DNA from: an uncultured Flavobacteriaceae bacterium
GTDB taxonomy: Bacteria > Bacteroidota > Bacteroidia > Flavobacteriales > Flavobacteriaceae
Assembly (NCBI GenBank): GCA_947494205.1
Contig: CANLUH010000030.1
Coordinates: forward strand, 1-41,848
Length of the DNA stretch: 41,848 bases
Direction: 5' to 3'
Under the pieces are notes generated by a model. That model did no database searches. It saw only the letters and a list, made by a program, of their open reading frames with translations, and was not told the origin of the DNA. Below, piece by piece: positions 35,918 through 41,524 of the stretch. The translations under genes were made by a program, and so were the position numbers. Position 1 is the first letter of the stretch, and each line of letters opens with the position of its first letter.

Positions 35918-37537
35918 TTATTTTATTTCAAATTTTATTGGCAAATAATACTTAGTACTTGCTGCTTTACCATCGTACTCTCCAGGAGCAAGTTTAGGTA
36001 ATAACTCCATTACTCGTCTAGCTTCGGCTTCAAACTCCTTGTATTCAGCTCTAAACCTTAAATCATTTACAATACCTTCCTTATCTATATTAAAGAAAAC
36101 AGAAATTTTATGTTTCCCAACTTCACCAAAAGCCTCTAGTTTTTTAGTGTCAAAGTTCTTCATTACCAATTGTGCTATTTTATCGCTAAAACATTTTTTA
36201 AGTGCTTCGTTAGACATTGATGCATCACATCCTGGGTACGTAGGTACTTTGTCCAATTGTACAAAAGCTATTGACCCATCATCAATAGGTTCTGTTTTTG
36301 GCATATTTTTCCCGTTCATTTTAATAATATTTACTTTTGCTATATCTCCAGAATTCAAATACCTGACCCCTTTTTGTGTGTATTTAGAAATTGTAGTCCC
36401 ATCTGTAAATGTTATATCAATTTGATTATTATAACTTTCTGGTATCGCTTCACTTTCAGCATGTACACTATAAGTCGTTACTTTTGTTGCTCTATCAAAA
36501 GAAACTCGAATATTATAATCTTCACTATTAATTCTTACAAACTTCTCTGCTTCATTGTGTAATTCTTGTTTTTCTTCTGAAATAACTTCATTTTCTTCTA
36601 GAGTAACTGTGTAGCGTTCTAAATTTTTATTTACTGTTACAACATCTTCTTTTACAGCATCATCAGAGCAGGATGTATAAAATAACATTCCTAATACCAT
36701 AGGCATTAATAAAGCATACTTAATTAAATTAACTTGTTTTGATTTCGTTTTGTTTAACATAATAATTCGTTTTTTGATTAATGATTTTTTAAAAAATGGG
36801 TTGATGAAGGATACCTTTTTCGTTTGAAAAACTTGAGCTAATAAATTTTCATAATAGGCAGTTTTATTAATCTTTACAGCTTCAGAATCGGCAACAAACT
36901 CATGTATATCTGCTATTTTTCTTTGGTACATGTAGATCAAAGGGTTAAACCAAAATAGAATGCGTAGTACTTCAAAAAACAACAAATCTATGCTATGTTT
37001 TTCCTTAACATGTACTTCTTCGTGAGCAATTATAGCTTTCTTTTCGTCTCCCTTTATCTGTTCTCCTATAAAAATATAGTTGAAGAATGAGAACGCCAAT
37101 TCACTATTTAATAGCTGAACTAAAACCGCTTCTTTAAATTTTGTTTTTGGGTTTTTATAGGCTAAAAATAGAATTCTAGATAATTTATATATAAATAATG
37201 CTGCTGCTACAATGCATCCCAAATAGAATACAATATCCCATGCAAAAAAAGATTCTGAGTTAGTATTTAATGTTTCTAAAACCGGTCTATTTGCATCATT
37301 AACAACTTCATTTGCACCTCCATTTAATACTATTTCAGAAAGCCCTATGGTATATTCTACGGGGATTACTGTTTTAAAAGATTCTATTTTTATAAAAGGT
37401 AAAGTAATAGATAACAGTACAGATGCTAATAAATAGAACCTATTCCAGTTAAAGAATGTTTCTCGTTTTAAAAACAAATCGTAAACCATTAAAAAGAACA
37501 ACTGAAATACGATGGTTTGTATAATATAATGTAACAT
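35918..37537 (-). CDS. M56 (BlaR1-type) sensor peptidase with TonB_C domain (system 2)
   Basis: A 539-residue membrane metallopeptidase. TM helices lie near residues 5-22, 34-50, 98-118 and 270-287. The HEEVH motif (172-176) and the downstream DIHEFVADSEAV give the zinc site. After the fourth TM there is a periplasmic region, and the last 110 residues are a TonB C-terminal-like domain (VPTYPGCDASMSNEALKKCF ... FFNIDKEGIVNDLRFRAEY ... YYLPIKFEIK). This M56-TonB_C fusion is common in Bacteroidota and may link the sensor to the outer membrane; the signal is unknown and there is no penicillin-binding domain. It is 2 bp after the repressor gene and abuts the TPR gene. Confidence 0.9.
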   Translation of the reverse strand: MLHYIIQTIVFQLFFLMVYDLFLKRETFFNWNRFYLLASVLLSITLPFIKIESFKTVIPVEYTIGLSEIVLNGGANEVVNDANRPVLETLNTNSESFFAWDIVFYLGCIVAAALFIYKLSRILFLAYKNPKTKFKEAVLVQLLNSELAFSFFNYIFIGEQIKGDEKKAIIAHEEVHVKEKHSIDLLFFEVLRILFWFNPLIYMYQRKIADIHEFVADSEAVKINKTAYYENLLAQVFQTKKVSFINPFFKKSLIKKRIIMLNKTKSKQVNLIKYALLMPMVLGMLFYTSCSDDAVKEDVVTVNKNLERYTVTLEENEVISEEKQELHNEAEKFVRINSEDYNIRVSFDRATKVTTYSVHAESEAIPESYNNQIDITFTDGTTISKYTQKGVRYLNSGDIAKVNIIKMNGKNMPKTEPIDDGSIAFVQLDKVPTYPGCDASMSNEALKKCFSDKIAQLVMKNFDTKKLEAFGEVGKHKISVFFNIDKEGIVNDLRFRAEYKEFEAEARRVMELLPKLAPGEYDGKAASTKYYLPIKFEIK

Positions 37538-37539
37538 AA

Positions 37540-37899
37540 TTATTCTTTTTTATTAATTTCTTTTAATACAGATTCTAATTCGTTTAGATTGATATCATTT
37601 TTTTTCATAAAAAAGGACACCATACTTTTAAAGGAACCTTGAAAATAATTATCCACCAATTTATTTATAGACTGGTTACTGTACTCATGCTTTTCTAGTA
37701 AAGGGAAATAAATATGTCCTTTTCCTTTTTTCTCATAGTCTACAAAGCCTTTGCTTTCTAAAATCCTAACAATTGTAGACACTGTATTATAAGCTGGTTT
37801 TGGATCTGATAACTCTTCTATTATCTGCTTAACATTTGCTTTTTTTAGCTGCCATAATACCTGCATTATGTCTTCTTCTGCTTTTGTTAATTGTTTCAT
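37540..37899 (-). CDS. BlaI/MecI/CopY-family transcriptional repressor (system 2)
   Basis: A 119-residue winged-helix repressor, paralogous to the one at 13056 in layout: LTKAEEDIMQVLWQLKKANV, then YNTVSTIVRILESKGFVDYEKKGKGHIYFP, then a C-terminal dimerisation part. It should bind its own promoter as a dimer and be released when the M56 peptidase, 2 bp downstream, is triggered. The recognition region (PKPAYNTVSTIVRILESKGF) differs from that of system 1 (PKPATTTVATLLKRMTDKGF), in line with different operator sequences. No antibiotic-resistance gene is present nearby, so the role is probably envelope-stress or nutrient signalling. Confidence 0.93.
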   Translation of the reverse strand: MKQLTKAEEDIMQVLWQLKKANVKQIIEELSDPKPAYNTVSTIVRILESKGFVDYEKKGKGHIYFPLLEKHEYSNQSINKLVDNYFQGSFKSMVSFFMKKNDINLNELESVLKEINKKE

Positions 37900-37972: not shown

Positions 37973-38022
37973 TAAAATGTAACATTTTTTTTATTTGTGC
38001 GTCTTATTGATAAATGTTTTAA

Positions 38023-38520
38023 ATGGATATTCTTTTAACCGTTTTTGGTTTCTTATTTATTTGTTTTGGTTTAATAGGTAGTATTGTACCTGTATTACCT
38101 GGCCCTCCATTAAGTTGGATTGGACTTTTATTATTACACCTTACAGATGCCATACCAAACGATTGGTTATTTTTAACAGTAACGCTTTTAATTGCACTAG
38201 CAGTATTTGCTCTAGATTATATTATACCTGCTATTGGCACTAAAAAGTTTGGAGGTAGTAAGGCTGGTATGATTGGCACCTCTATAGGTTTAATTGTTGG
38301 TATAATTGCCCCTATTCCTTTTGGAATAATTATAGGCCCTTTTGTTGGTGCGTTAATTGGGGAATATACTAATAAGGCTGATTCTGCTACAGCAATAAAA
38401 GCAGCTTTTGGTTCTTTTCTAGGTTTTATAACTGGTACCTTTTTAAAGTTTATTGTTGCTGTTATTTATTTAGGATTATTTATTAAAATATTTTGGGACT
38501 ATAAAAGTATTATCTTTTAA
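38023..38520 (+). CDS. DUF456 membrane protein
   Basis: A 165-residue protein made almost entirely of TM helices (about 5-25, 28-40, 48-68, 85-108, 112-125 and 138-160). The Gly/Pro-rich first part GSIVPVLPGPPLSWIGLLLL and the middle GLIVGIIAPIPFGIIIGPFVGALIGEY are the signature of DUF456, a small-membrane-protein family with no known activity. The motifs are complete and the length is normal. It is divergent from BlaI system 2; its own promoter is not clear. It is followed by the possible small-RNA region. Confidence 0.88.
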   Translation: MDILLTVFGFLFICFGLIGSIVPVLPGPPLSWIGLLLLHLTDAIPNDWLFLTVTLLIALAVFALDYIIPAIGTKKFGGSKAGMIGTSIGLIVGIIAPIPFGIIIGPFVGALIGEYTNKADSATAIKAAFGSFLGFITGTFLKFIVAVIYLGLFIKIFWDYKSIIF

Positions 38521-38534
38521 AACCAAACTGTACT

Positions 38535-38644
38535 AAAAGAAGAAACCTTATGGCTTTCCGTGTGAGAAAACCATAAGGCTAGTGTAAATGTGCTATTACC
38601 AACTAAATTCTATCGAGGGACTGAATTGAGTTAATGATTGTTGA
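38535..38644 (-). ncRNA. Candidate small RNA or short transcript in a convergent gap
   Basis: A -7 box TATCTTTG on the minus strand (38650-38657) would start transcription near 38644. The transcript then runs about 100 bases without a real ORF to a strong hairpin: CCTTATGG (38546-38553) / CCATAAGG (38571-38578), with an inner 4-bp extension around a 7-base loop. Read on the minus strand it is followed by TTTCTTCTTTTAG, a terminator-like end. Only an 8-codon ORF (MVFSHGKP) lies in the hairpin. Alternatives: the hairpin ends the response regulator mRNA reading through from 38804, or all are chance in AT-rich DNA. Confidence 0.4.
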
Positions 38645-38649
38645 TGATT

Positions 38650-38719
38650 CAAAGATAAAACTTATTTCTCATGTCGGTTACGGCTTTTACCGTAACAGCA
38701 TTACGGTTTTTCCCGTAGT
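38650..38719 (-). promoter_or_regulatory. Two tandem 20-bp inverted repeats upstream of a -7 box
   Basis: GTTACGGCTTTTACCGTAAC (38677-38696) and ATTACGGTTTTTCCCGTAGT (38700-38719) share TTACGG-N-TTTT-N-CCGTA, and their offset is 23 bp, close to two helical turns. Relative to a start near 38644 their centres fall at about -42 and -65, where activators that touch RNA polymerase bind. The -33 box is absent and lies inside repeat 1, as in activator-dependent promoters. The response regulator encoded next door is a possible binder, unproven. Confidence 0.5.
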
Positions 38720-38803
38720 ATTTAATTATACTCTTACATAAAAGGCTGTGAAAAAAAATAAAAAAAATAAAATTTTAACATTTAGAGGCACAAAAAGTGC
38801 AGA

Positions 38804-39484
38804 TTAGTTTATAAAACCTTTAGATCTTGCCTCTTGTATTAGTGTTTCATCTTTACCATCTTCTATATCAAAAAGTTCTTTTAAGTGCTTTTTACGCTTT
38901 TCAATCATACTTAAAGACAAATCTATATGATTTCTAATATCTTTTGTTTTTATACCTTTAGATAGTAAATGAAGTATTTGATGATTAATTTCATCTAATT
39001 CTATAGCACTAGAAATAATGTTCCTAATCACATTATTTACAGTTCCACTATAAAATGGTGGGTTATTTAAAACAGCCTTGAACGCACTTGCTAATTCGCT
39101 AGACGTTAAATCACTTTTTATTAAAAAACCATCTGGGTTTATATTTTTAATAACACTATGTATTCTATAAGGTTCATCGAACATAGTTAATAACACAACT
39201 TTAGAATGTGGTAAATTTAATCTAACAAACTCGGCTAAGTCTATACCAGACTTAAATTTATTATCTGAAGACGCAGGAATACTTACATCAAAAAAGAAAA
39301 CATCGTAAGGCTGCTCTATAGCTATAGATTTATTAATTGCTTTTATAGATTCATCACAATTGGTTGCAATGTCTATAATAAGTTCTTCATTTTCTTTTTT
39401 TGTAGCTATAAGTGTGTTTTGATACCCTTCTATAATCATAGGGTGATCGTCTGTCATTAATATTCTAATGCTTTTTTGTTGCAT
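38804..39484 (-). CDS. NarL/LuxR-family response regulator
   Basis: A 226-residue DNA-binding response regulator. The receiver domain (about 5-128) has D12/D13 (MTDDHP), the phosphoacceptor D66 (FFFDVSIP), T100 (VVLLTMFD) and K123 (GFLIKSD), all conserved. The C-terminal LuxR-type HTH (about 160-225) reads INHQILHLLSKGIKTKDIRN then LSMIEKRKKHLKELF. It starts 18 bp after the kinase gene stop, so the pair is an operon. Once phosphorylated it should bind DNA as a dimer to inverted repeats. A weak hairpin (GCAC-AAAAA-GTGC, 38788-38800) followed by T-rich DNA on the minus strand lies just after its stop. Confidence 0.93.
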   Translation of the reverse strand: MQQKSIRILMTDDHPMIIEGYQNTLIATKKENEELIIDIATNCDESIKAINKSIAIEQPYDVFFFDVSIPASSDNKFKSGIDLAEFVRLNLPHSKVVLLTMFDEPYRIHSVIKNINPDGFLIKSDLTSSELASAFKAVLNNPPFYSGTVNNVIRNIISSAIELDEINHQILHLLSKGIKTKDIRNHIDLSLSMIEKRKKHLKELFDIEDGKDETLIQEARSKGFIN

Positions 39485-39502
39485 TGTACAGGATAAATTA
39501 AA

Positions 39503-41524
39503 TTAATTGGGGACTCTTATTTCTATTGTTGTTCCATGCGTAGCTTTGGTTTGTATATTTAGCACACCTTTTATCTCCTTTACACGAGATTTCATATTTT
39601 TAAGACCTATTCCTTTTTTGGTCTTATTTTCATCGAAACCAGAACCATCATCTTTTATTGCTAAAGATATTAAATTATTTTGTTGTTTGAATAGTATATC
39701 TACTCTTGTTGCATTAGCATGCTTATAAATATTTTGCAACGACTCCTGTATTATTCTATAAAAGTGAATTTTTGTTTTGTTAGATATAGCATCCCAATTA
39801 ATATCCTGATCTGCCTTAATACTGCTTTTTAAATTATAAGCTAGTGTCTGTGTTTCTACTAAAGTTTCTATAATATCTAGGAATCCAGAGTGTGCTATAA
39901 AATCTGTATTAAGGTCATGAGACACTTTACGAATGTCTTGTTCTATTACTTTAAGCTCATTAATATAATTTCCTCTATTGGCAACAGCTTCTTCTGTTTT
40001 ACTTAGGTTTAAACTGTCTAAACTTAATCGTGCACCAAAGAGCCTCCCCAAAATGCCATCGTGTAATTCTTGAGAAATACGTTGTTTTTCTGCAGCTCTA
40101 GCCTCATCCATTTTGTCTTGCTGCGACAACATTAAGTTATAGATTTCCTCATTAGCTTCTTGCTGTTGCTGTGCTAATTGTAATTCTTTATTTTTTTCGC
40201 GTTGCGATTTTATAATGTATAAAAAGAATAGTGTTACTAATAGAGCTATGGAGGTGATAATTAACCATTCGTTTTGTTTAGAAAATTGATTTCTTTCTTT
40301 TCTAATTTTATCAGTTTCTAGATTAATTCGAGCAAATTTATTCCTGATAGAACGTTCAGCTAAGACTAAACTATCATTTAATTTAATGTGCTTATATAAA
40401 TATTTTTTTGAAGAATCTCCAACCTCTATTTTTGATTTAAGTATTAAAGTATTTAAAATAGTCTGATTTGCTATTAATTCTTTTGCTAAGTTATATGAAA
40501 GATTGGCATAATACGAAGCTGAATCTTTTTTATTTATTTTTAAAAAATATTCTGAAAAGTGCTCACTAGTATTCATTATTTCAAAATTATCTTTCTCATT
40601 TTTGGCTGTTTCTAGTGCCTCTCTGAATAGCGCTTCTATCTCATTATATTGTTTTTCGTTATTTAACAATTTACAATATGCTAAACTAGATAATAAAGAC
40701 GAATAGGTACTTGGGTCTTTATTTTTTATAGATTTATCAGTTAAAATTTTCAAAAATTCTTTGTTAGCAATATTGTAGTCTCCTTTTCTTCTATAAAGTA
40801 TTGCTATGTTTGTTTTAGAATAAAGATTTAATAAATAGTCGTCTTTAATTTTTTTACTAAAAACTAAAGCCTTATTATGATATTCAATTGCTTTATCATA
40901 TCTACCTATCTGACCAGAAATAATACCAATTAAATTATTAAATTTCCATAACTCTCCATATACATGATCATTTTTAGGTAATTTTTCTAAAATTCGTATT
41001 CCTTCTATCGCGTTAATTTCACTTCCAATAAAATCTCGTTCACCTCTTTGTATTCTAGCCATATTAGACAAAACATCAGCTTCAAGTTTTTTTTTATTAC
41101 TTAACCTATAAAATTTTCTTGCTTTATAATAATAATTATACGCACTATCTAGCTTGTTTTTTATTTCATCAAAATAATATCCTAGATTATGGGAAATATA
41201 TCCCATTTTTAATGTGTCATTCAACTTAGCTGCTAACTTTAAATCTTTATGATTAATACTATACAGCGAATCAATATCATTATTTATTAGAAACAGGTAT
41301 GACAAAACTCTATTACTAGCTAAAATGGTACTATCCCTTCTCATATTCTTGGACATTTTCACAGCTAATCTGGCATAATCAAGTTGTTTTTCTATTCCTA
41401 GTGATTTATTATTAGCTAAATCTCTTAACGTCTGAATACTATCAAAACTCTCAAAATCTTTATTTTGAGCAAAAATATATTGTGAAAATATAATTGAAAA
41501 AAAAAATATTAAAATAACTCTCAA
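39503..41524 (-). CDS. TPR sensor histidine kinase (HisKA_3/NarX type)
   Basis: A 673-residue kinase. The signal peptide (MRVILIFFFSIIFSQYIFAQ) puts a large N-terminal TPR region (about 50-390) in the periplasm. One TM (WLIITSIALLVTLFFLYII, about 423-442) follows, then a cytosolic coiled coil (KELQLAQQQQEANEEIYNLM). The HisKA_3 box has the phosphoacceptor H488 in RISQELHDGILGR, and the ATPase domain carries NIYKHANATRVDI, DDGSGFDENKTKKGIGLKNM and THGTTIEIRV. TPR-sensor kinases of this layout with a NarL-type regulator are typical of Bacteroidota; the stimulus is unknown. A -7 box at 41550-41557 drives the gene. Confidence 0.93.
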   Translation of the reverse strand: MRVILIFFFSIIFSQYIFAQNKDFESFDSIQTLRDLANNKSLGIEKQLDYARLAVKMSKNMRRDSTILASNRVLSYLFLINNDIDSLYSINHKDLKLAAKLNDTLKMGYISHNLGYYFDEIKNKLDSAYNYYYKARKFYRLSNKKKLEADVLSNMARIQRGERDFIGSEINAIEGIRILEKLPKNDHVYGELWKFNNLIGIISGQIGRYDKAIEYHNKALVFSKKIKDDYLLNLYSKTNIAILYRRKGDYNIANKEFLKILTDKSIKNKDPSTYSSLLSSLAYCKLLNNEKQYNEIEALFREALETAKNEKDNFEIMNTSEHFSEYFLKINKKDSASYYANLSYNLAKELIANQTILNTLILKSKIEVGDSSKKYLYKHIKLNDSLVLAERSIRNKFARINLETDKIRKERNQFSKQNEWLIITSIALLVTLFFLYIIKSQREKNKELQLAQQQQEANEEIYNLMLSQQDKMDEARAAEKQRISQELHDGILGRLFGARLSLDSLNLSKTEEAVANRGNYINELKVIEQDIRKVSHDLNTDFIAHSGFLDIIETLVETQTLAYNLKSSIKADQDINWDAISNKTKIHFYRIIQESLQNIYKHANATRVDILFKQQNNLISLAIKDDGSGFDENKTKKGIGLKNMKSRVKEIKGVLNIQTKATHGTTIEIRVPN

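Follow-up and report, generated by a model that had tools for sequence, protein, structure and literature searches.

The window, by which we mean the whole stretch of 41,848 bases that was analysed, comes from a marine flavobacterium and encodes a two-component system on its minus strand. The sensor histidine kinase (39503 to 41524, minus strand) has TPR repeats, a HisKA_3-like region and a HATPase_c domain; in Pfam, TPR_12 (3.4e-12) and HATPase_c (9.4e-10) lie above the cut-off and HisKA_3 (1.7e-4) just below it. The adjoining gene (38804 to 39484, minus strand) encodes a response regulator of the NarL/RcsB type, the candidate activator of the RNA described below. A profile of 14 regulator homologues matched RcsB (3.3e-13), VraR (1e-7) and NarL (9.4e-7) in the PDB over nearly the full length, and D12, D13, D66, T100 and K123, which we take to have the roles of the receiver residues, are invariant in these homologues. 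The protein thus has the make-up of a NarL/LuxR-type response regulator (a receiver and a LuxR-type helix-turn-helix domain), an assignment for which Pfam alone is too weak (Response_reg scored below its cut-off and no LuxR-type helix-turn-helix family was returned). Convergent with this unit, and outside it, is the gene for a DUF456 membrane protein (38023 to 38520, plus strand; Pfam DUF456 7.3e-41). Beyond it (35918 to 37899) are genes named, from their translations, as a BlaI-like repressor and a membrane peptidase-like protein.

In the gap between the regulator and DUF456 genes, where the program-made scan of the window gives no open reading frame of at least 80 amino acids, we predict a small-RNA gene with a product of about 110 nt (38534 to 38645, minus strand; 5′ end placed to within about 3 bases). 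An earlier reading of the letters alone (the sequence-only reading) had proposed, in this gene-free convergent gap, a transcript of about 110 bases ending in a strong hairpin with a T-rich tail, and the predicted fold agrees with it. A 131-nt stretch has a folding energy of −30.2 kcal/mol, compared with a shuffle mean of −16.1 (z −5.4; none of 200 shuffles was as good). We built a covariance model (R1) from an alignment (A1) of twelve copies of the RNA alone, with the promoter left out. R1 matches 100 of 397 Flavobacteriaceae genomes, at 102 places (E ≤ 0.001), so the covariance search in relatives that the sequence-only reading had suggested returned a widespread family. Every one of these places was examined along with its flanks, and counts of RNA copies and RNA places below refer to these 102.

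The 5′ domain of the RNA (38597 to 38645, minus strand) is predicted to be a loop enclosed by a 6-bp closing helix (AUCAAC with GUUGG and UA). The loop carries a C-rich motif, UCCCUC (38615 to 38620, minus strand), which is a candidate target-binding site. A single-stranded linker, UAAUAGCACAUUUACACUA (38580 to 38598, minus strand), separates this domain from an intrinsic terminator hairpin with a U-rich tail (38534 to 38579, minus strand), the arms of which (38566 to 38579 and 38544 to 38559) are followed by TTTCTTCTTTT. The T-rich tail occurs on the minus strand only, and thus the terminator suits transcription of that strand rather than the DUF456 gene, which is convergent. The loop motif UCCCUC is present in 92 of the 102 RNA copies (CCCUC in 95), and the linker motifs AAUAGC and UUUACA in 97 and 65; UCCCUC and AAUAGC are the most constant unpaired parts of the RNA.

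Covariation points to the terminator in particular, as 12 of its 13 pairs have changes on both sides among the 102 aligned copies, and two inner pairs are unpaired in more than half of them. The whole structure scored 0.414, compared with 0.207 for shuffles and 0.044 to 0.130 with the pairing partners slid, in an alignment that had been fitted to the structure being tested; RNAalifold kept 10 terminator pairs from the same alignment. The closing helix is almost without variation (98.3% of cells paired) and so receives scant covariation support; it stands as a prediction. The terminator hairpin contains GAGG, able to pair with the CCUC of the loop, in 52 of the 102 copies, and the hairpin in the window is without it.

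Two perfect TACGG-N6-CCGTA palindromes, with 16-bp cores at 38679 to 38694 and 38702 to 38717, lie 23 bp apart ahead of the RNA. We treat them as a proximal operator, GTTACGGCTTTTACCGTAAC (38677 to 38696, no strand assigned), which adjoins the expected position of a −33 element, and a distal operator, ATTACGGTTTTTCCCGTAGT (38700 to 38719, no strand assigned). With up to one mismatch allowed, these cores are the sole two matches in the window (shuffle mean 0.23), and at least two matches arose in 2 of 100 window shuffles. The palindromes were not listed by a repeat search at default settings. Across the host's own genome, TACGGN6CCGTA has 10 sites and the reversed control pattern 4. The tandem repeats had been noted in the sequence-only reading at about −42 and −65 from a predicted start, and their centres do fall near these positions if the 5′ end is taken at about 38645. 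The minus-strand promoter box postulated in that reading is also present, as TATCTTTG (38650 to 38657, minus strand), of the form TAnnTTTG, the −7 type promoter box of Bacteroidota. The box alone is no evidence, because the window holds 69 boxes of this type and 73 are expected.

Conservation among relatives is a different matter. An exact TAnnTTTG was found at 87 of the 102 RNA places, compared with 1.0 in base shuffles, and a box starts 9 to 11 bases ahead of the RNA model start in 93; the exact box is absent at 15 places, including all three copies in one genome (G138). Every place has one operator or more with no more than a single mismatch to TRCGGN5-6CCRYA, a consensus derived from these same 102 promoters (base-shuffle mean 0.3). 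A pair, with the second site 21.5 to 23 bp from the best, occurs at 72 (0.1 in shuffles). The promoter region played no part in finding the RNAs, and its conservation is therefore separate evidence. A TTTG element at the −33 position is not conserved among the 102 RNA places, which would fit an activator-dependent promoter.

A DNA search of 199 genomes of the family found the same layout in other genera. The hairpin and the repeats are both conserved beyond the genus of the window. The RNA follows the regulator gene in 76 of 80 named loci (80 of the 413 relatives found), which include Xanthomarina, Lacinutrix, Algibacter, Formosa, Hyunsoonleella, Flavivirga and Tamlana; no RNA match was obtained in the other four (L291, L292, L325 and L330). 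Among the matches listed, the closest named regulators come from two records of Bizionia, one for an uncultured isolate and one for a MAG (92 and 91% identity). When 196 genomes of the order were searched with a second model (R2), 11 had a match at E ≤ 0.01, and four of these (G000, G125, G154 and G157) are true members. The other seven matches (L180 to L191, E ≥ 2.7e-4) have no regulator nearby and look like plain terminators, and were rejected. No convincing match outside the family was found in these 196 genomes.

The RNA is closely linked to the two-component pair. A homologue of the regulator (55 to 100% identity to that of the window) lies upstream on the same strand at 101 of 102 RNA places, the lone exception (L148 in G278) being at a contig end, and a sensor kinase homologue is present at 101 of 102. 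At 97 of these 101 places the distance from the regulator match to the RNA behind it is 72 to 176 nt. Homologues of DUF456 are present at 87 of the 102 places and of the BlaI-like repressor gene at 73. Counted from the other side, the regulator was found at E ≤ 1e-79 in 115 of 397 genomes (a hand count), 98 of which match R1. Loci of the remaining 17 were fetched and searched with R2. Fourteen matched, 11 of them at E ≤ 4e-5 and three (L205, L194 and L196) weakly, at 0.015 to 0.023. In two others (L193 and L195) a diverged copy with operators, box, a TTAATAGCATTTACATTTACAC stretch and hairpin was recognised by eye, and in one (L192) no unit was recognisable by eye. Thus, of the 115 regulator-bearing genomes, 112 have a model match (three weak), two a diverged copy and one none. 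Outside the 115, R1 matched in G278 (the contig end) and in G292, where the regulator stretch has 55% identity. In G292 (L155) this stretch has three in-frame stops, and the RNA is still present 526 bp downstream. Across many relatives, then, the RNA gene travels with the sensor-regulator pair, which probably switches it on.

Some loci carry the RNA in several copies. The largest array (L295) has eight tandem copies, 276 to 298 bp apart. An exact TAnnTTTG box accompanies every copy, as does an operator-like palindrome, which is degenerate in the first, second and eighth. Three copies with boxes and operator pairs are present in L201, three with operators and without the exact box in L032, and two in L284, the first with a degenerate operator.

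The same operator also precedes protein-coding genes (loci L046 to L053 in the own genome and L235 to L266 in relatives), as a genome scan proposed in the sequence-only reading was meant to find. In all five regulator-bearing genomes compared (G000, G195, G363, G091 and G294) it precedes four shared neighbourhoods. One is lepA together with the gene opposite, and another is a lipoprotein-like gene whose product was read as a secreted protease. The third has a gene for a secreted protein next to one for an ABC transporter, and the fourth a gene for a short secreted peptide (47 to 64 amino acids) near tsaE. Homology among these neighbourhoods was tested and is weak where the gene for the secreted protein is itself concerned (E 8e-12 to 4e-4). 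An OmpA-like pair behind the operator is common to the three genomes of the window's genus. The functions of genes behind operators are named from translations, with no domain search.

A pattern with a T core, TACGGNTTTN{1,2}CCGTA, has 116 sites in 21 genomes with the regulator and the RNA (control 20) and 14 sites in 21 genomes without the regulator (control 22). These genomes were chosen by hand, and the pattern was made stricter once looser ones had shown no such difference. Here "without the regulator" means no match at E ≤ 1e-30, or a best match no better than about 1e-49. Forward counts with a looser operator pattern gave 90 sites in 15 regulator-bearing genomes (control 91) and 138 in 17 others (control 177). 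Another loose count gave 52 sites in five bearing genomes (control 39), and the looser patterns showed no general excess in regulator-bearing genomes. Together with the linkage at 101 of 102 places, the T-core excess supports the adjacent NarL-type regulator as the candidate that would bind the repeats, as had been suggested.

At two of these operator loci (L240, 1501 to 2200, in G294, and L247, 600 to 1150, in G091) a unit occurs twice in tandem, at a spacing of about 340 bp; each has the same operator, a box-like site and another candidate RNA of about 200 nt, which in L240 ends in GGTTAATAGCGG and a terminator. A motif like TTTTCGATGAAATACAC or ATTTCATCGAAAAA occurs about 30 bases after the operator at several of L240, L048, L251, L253 and L256.

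The observation made in the sequence-only reading is thus correct and its interpretation mostly holds; beyond it are the wide spread of the RNA, its tandem copies and the protein-coding genes behind the same operator. Our preferred reading, to which we give a probability of about three in four, is that the adjacent two-component system activates the promoter of a standalone small RNA gene, the product of which acts in trans, independently of Hfq. Its predicted features are those of response-regulator-activated small RNAs: a promoter of its own with regulator-type sites, a non-coding product and an intrinsic terminator. The TPR-type sensor kinase would phosphorylate the NarL/RcsB-like regulator, dimers of which would occupy the two palindromes, spaced by about two turns of the helix. 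The proximal palindrome may stand in for the missing −33 element and bring RNA polymerase to the TAnnTTTG box. The resulting transcript of about 110 nt would consist of a 5′ domain presenting the UCCCUC loop, the single-stranded AAUAGCA-UUUACA linker and the terminator, and would most likely pair with mRNAs in trans without Hfq. The RNA would then form the post-transcriptional arm of the regulon, and secreted and envelope proteins may be among the direct targets, which have the same operator. The sequence itself shows the conserved RNA, operators, box and terminator, the linkage, the tandem copies and the lack of an Hfq match; transcription, binding by this regulator, activation as opposed to repression, action in trans and targets are inferred.

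The Hfq family PF17209 has no match in the own genome (99.78% complete), in a search that was positive in 5 of 14 control genomes. The lack of an Hfq match in the host speaks against an Hfq-dependent small RNA. Searches for antisense sequences gave no convincing conserved target. A 15-mer antisense to the linker, with one mismatch, had 60 matches in 20 genomes (20 of these being the RNA genes), compared with 37 for the control; this is not beyond the control and so gives no target signal. A 14-mer antisense to the loop had 146 matches (19 being the RNA genes), compared with 53 for the control, about 2.4-fold. Part of this excess consists of paired hits 261 bp apart that recur in several genomes. 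Of the 30 loop-match loci returned, thirteen were inspected; each match fell within a coding gene, the same one in two cases, or in an unrelated gap.

The loop motif could alternatively serve in a decoy, or sponge. The UCCCUC loop would mimic a motif in the leaders of regulon mRNAs and titrate a shared RNA-binding protein or antisense RNA, much as CsrB and RsmZ titrate CsrA. Amplification in tandem would suit titration. Among 31 leaders that follow the shared operator, six contain ATCCC (L050, L255, L239, L236, L048 and L266), a count that carries no chance expectation. However, the other 25 leaders lack ATCCC, each RNA has one motif rather than many, and no partner protein is known, so we regard a decoy as unlikely. 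As to a sponge of the CsrB/RsmZ type, inspection by eye found one UCCCUC per RNA among the copies listed.

In another unlikely reading, the RNA would be the 3′ untranslated region of the regulator mRNA (its terminator and what is left over), perhaps processed into a small RNA. With a regulator match so close upstream (72 to 176 nt at 97 of 101 places, both on one strand), read-through transcripts may well stop at the terminator of the RNA. However, this reading does not account for the conserved operators and box directly ahead of the RNA, nor for the extra tandem copies, eight in L295 and three in L201 with operator-like palindromes and exact boxes, and three in L032 with operators and no exact box. 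Copies with a box and an operator-like palindrome of their own make a mere mRNA 3′ end improbable. The sequence-only reading had set such an origin against its own proposal. As with the conservation of the repeats and the hairpin, the outcome favours the proposal, since the box and operator are kept and as many as eight repeats of the unit occur, each with a box and an operator-like site of its own. A 3′-UTR-derived small RNA, processed and with no promoter of its own, is likewise at odds with the conserved box, operators and tandem units.

It is similarly improbable that the regulator represses the RNA, with the operators as a block. The direction of control is not readable from the sequence and the proximal site lies near the promoter, but the sites end upstream of the box, and the missing conserved TTTG −33 element fits an activator-dependent promoter. 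A small peptide gene in place of the RNA is very improbable, since 45 of the 102 copies have no ATG, the 57 that have one contain frames (up to 32 amino acids) of very uneven length, and copies among those listed often differ in length by a number of bases that is not divisible by three.

The RNA family appears to be new. In Rfam 15, window positions 38000 to 39600 gave no family at gathering score (best match 24.6 bits, cut-off 50). This sub-threshold match, to the 23S-methyl motif (38539 to 38640, E 0.37), is most likely due to chance. Loci from 13 relatives gave none at gathering score, and four more gave only PhrS (20.3, cut-off 37), away from the RNA. No paper describing the RNA was found in searches of the open-licence PubMed Central literature, and the available part of a Riemerella two-component paper (PMC5399024) names no such RNA.

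The type of circuit is known, as in CiaR and the csRNAs or RcsB and RprA. In streptococci, according to the available parts of the reports, the two-component regulator of CiaRH drives several similar csRNAs, which were sought as a regulator site plus a terminator in intergenic regions and two of which are in tandem in one species (PMC8186281; PMC4507080; PMC3091779). The flavobacterial locus resembles these in having a two-component regulator site and a terminator around a small RNA, and in its tandem copies; it differs in phylum, regulator family and RNA sequence, and in that the RNA gene is directly behind its own regulator gene. CiaR is OmpR-type. RcsB, the best solved relative of the regulator, activates rprA; RprA is Hfq-dependent and is not known to be linked to rcsB, whereas the RNA here is regulator-linked, matches no Rfam family and has a host without an Hfq match. 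In gammaproteobacteria, GacA with RsmY, RsmZ and CsrB likewise combines a NarL-family regulator, an upstream palindrome and a small RNA output. Unlike those RNAs, the flavobacterial RNA has no repeated loop motif among the copies listed. The Qrr1-5 RNAs of vibrios are also multi-copy small RNAs driven by a response regulator, LuxO, but LuxO is of the sigma-54 type and Qrr requires Hfq.

Post-transcriptional control in Flavobacteriaceae is little explored, and Rfp18 of Flavobacterium psychrophilum is the one functionally studied flavobacterial small RNA found in these searches of the open-licence PubMed Central literature. The available part of its description presents a conserved small RNA with a strong predicted structure, deletion of which lowers two metalloprotease mRNAs (PMC9723704). 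Compared by description only, Rfp18 is predicted there to pair via its third stem-loop (PMC9723704), and two hairpins are predicted for the RNA here; the two might still be one RNA. The conserved family described here offers a good way in, as it is linked to a single two-component system, its operator can be read and further genes lie behind that operator. Cultured, non-pathogenic marine strains make it possible to test the signal, the regulon and the RNA-chaperone question (the host being without an Hfq match), and the tandem copies are natural dosage variants.

More distant regulators raise a further, tentative possibility. No R2 match at E ≤ 0.1 was obtained in 23 such loci (L209 to L231). 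A small RNA behind the regulator gene may be a fixed, ancestral output of the two-component system, which can be amplified (up to eight copies) or, in relatives with regulators of about 47 to 55% identity (e.g., L209, L213, L216 and L221), replaced by an unrelated RNA under the same operator; we consider this possible rather than likely. Among 15 loci with a regulator of 45 to 55% identity (L209 to L223), six (L209, L213, L216, L220, L221 and L223) have, by eye, a single palindrome with a TAnnTTTG-like box downstream of the regulator, and a candidate RNA that is longer and of a different sequence. Two (L211 and L219) have the palindrome only, and nothing was seen by eye in the other seven. No Rfam match was found in the searched loci with longer candidate RNAs. 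The candidate RNAs of L213 and L216 share TTAATTGTTGGGGGGCCAACAATCAACGGTGAAG.
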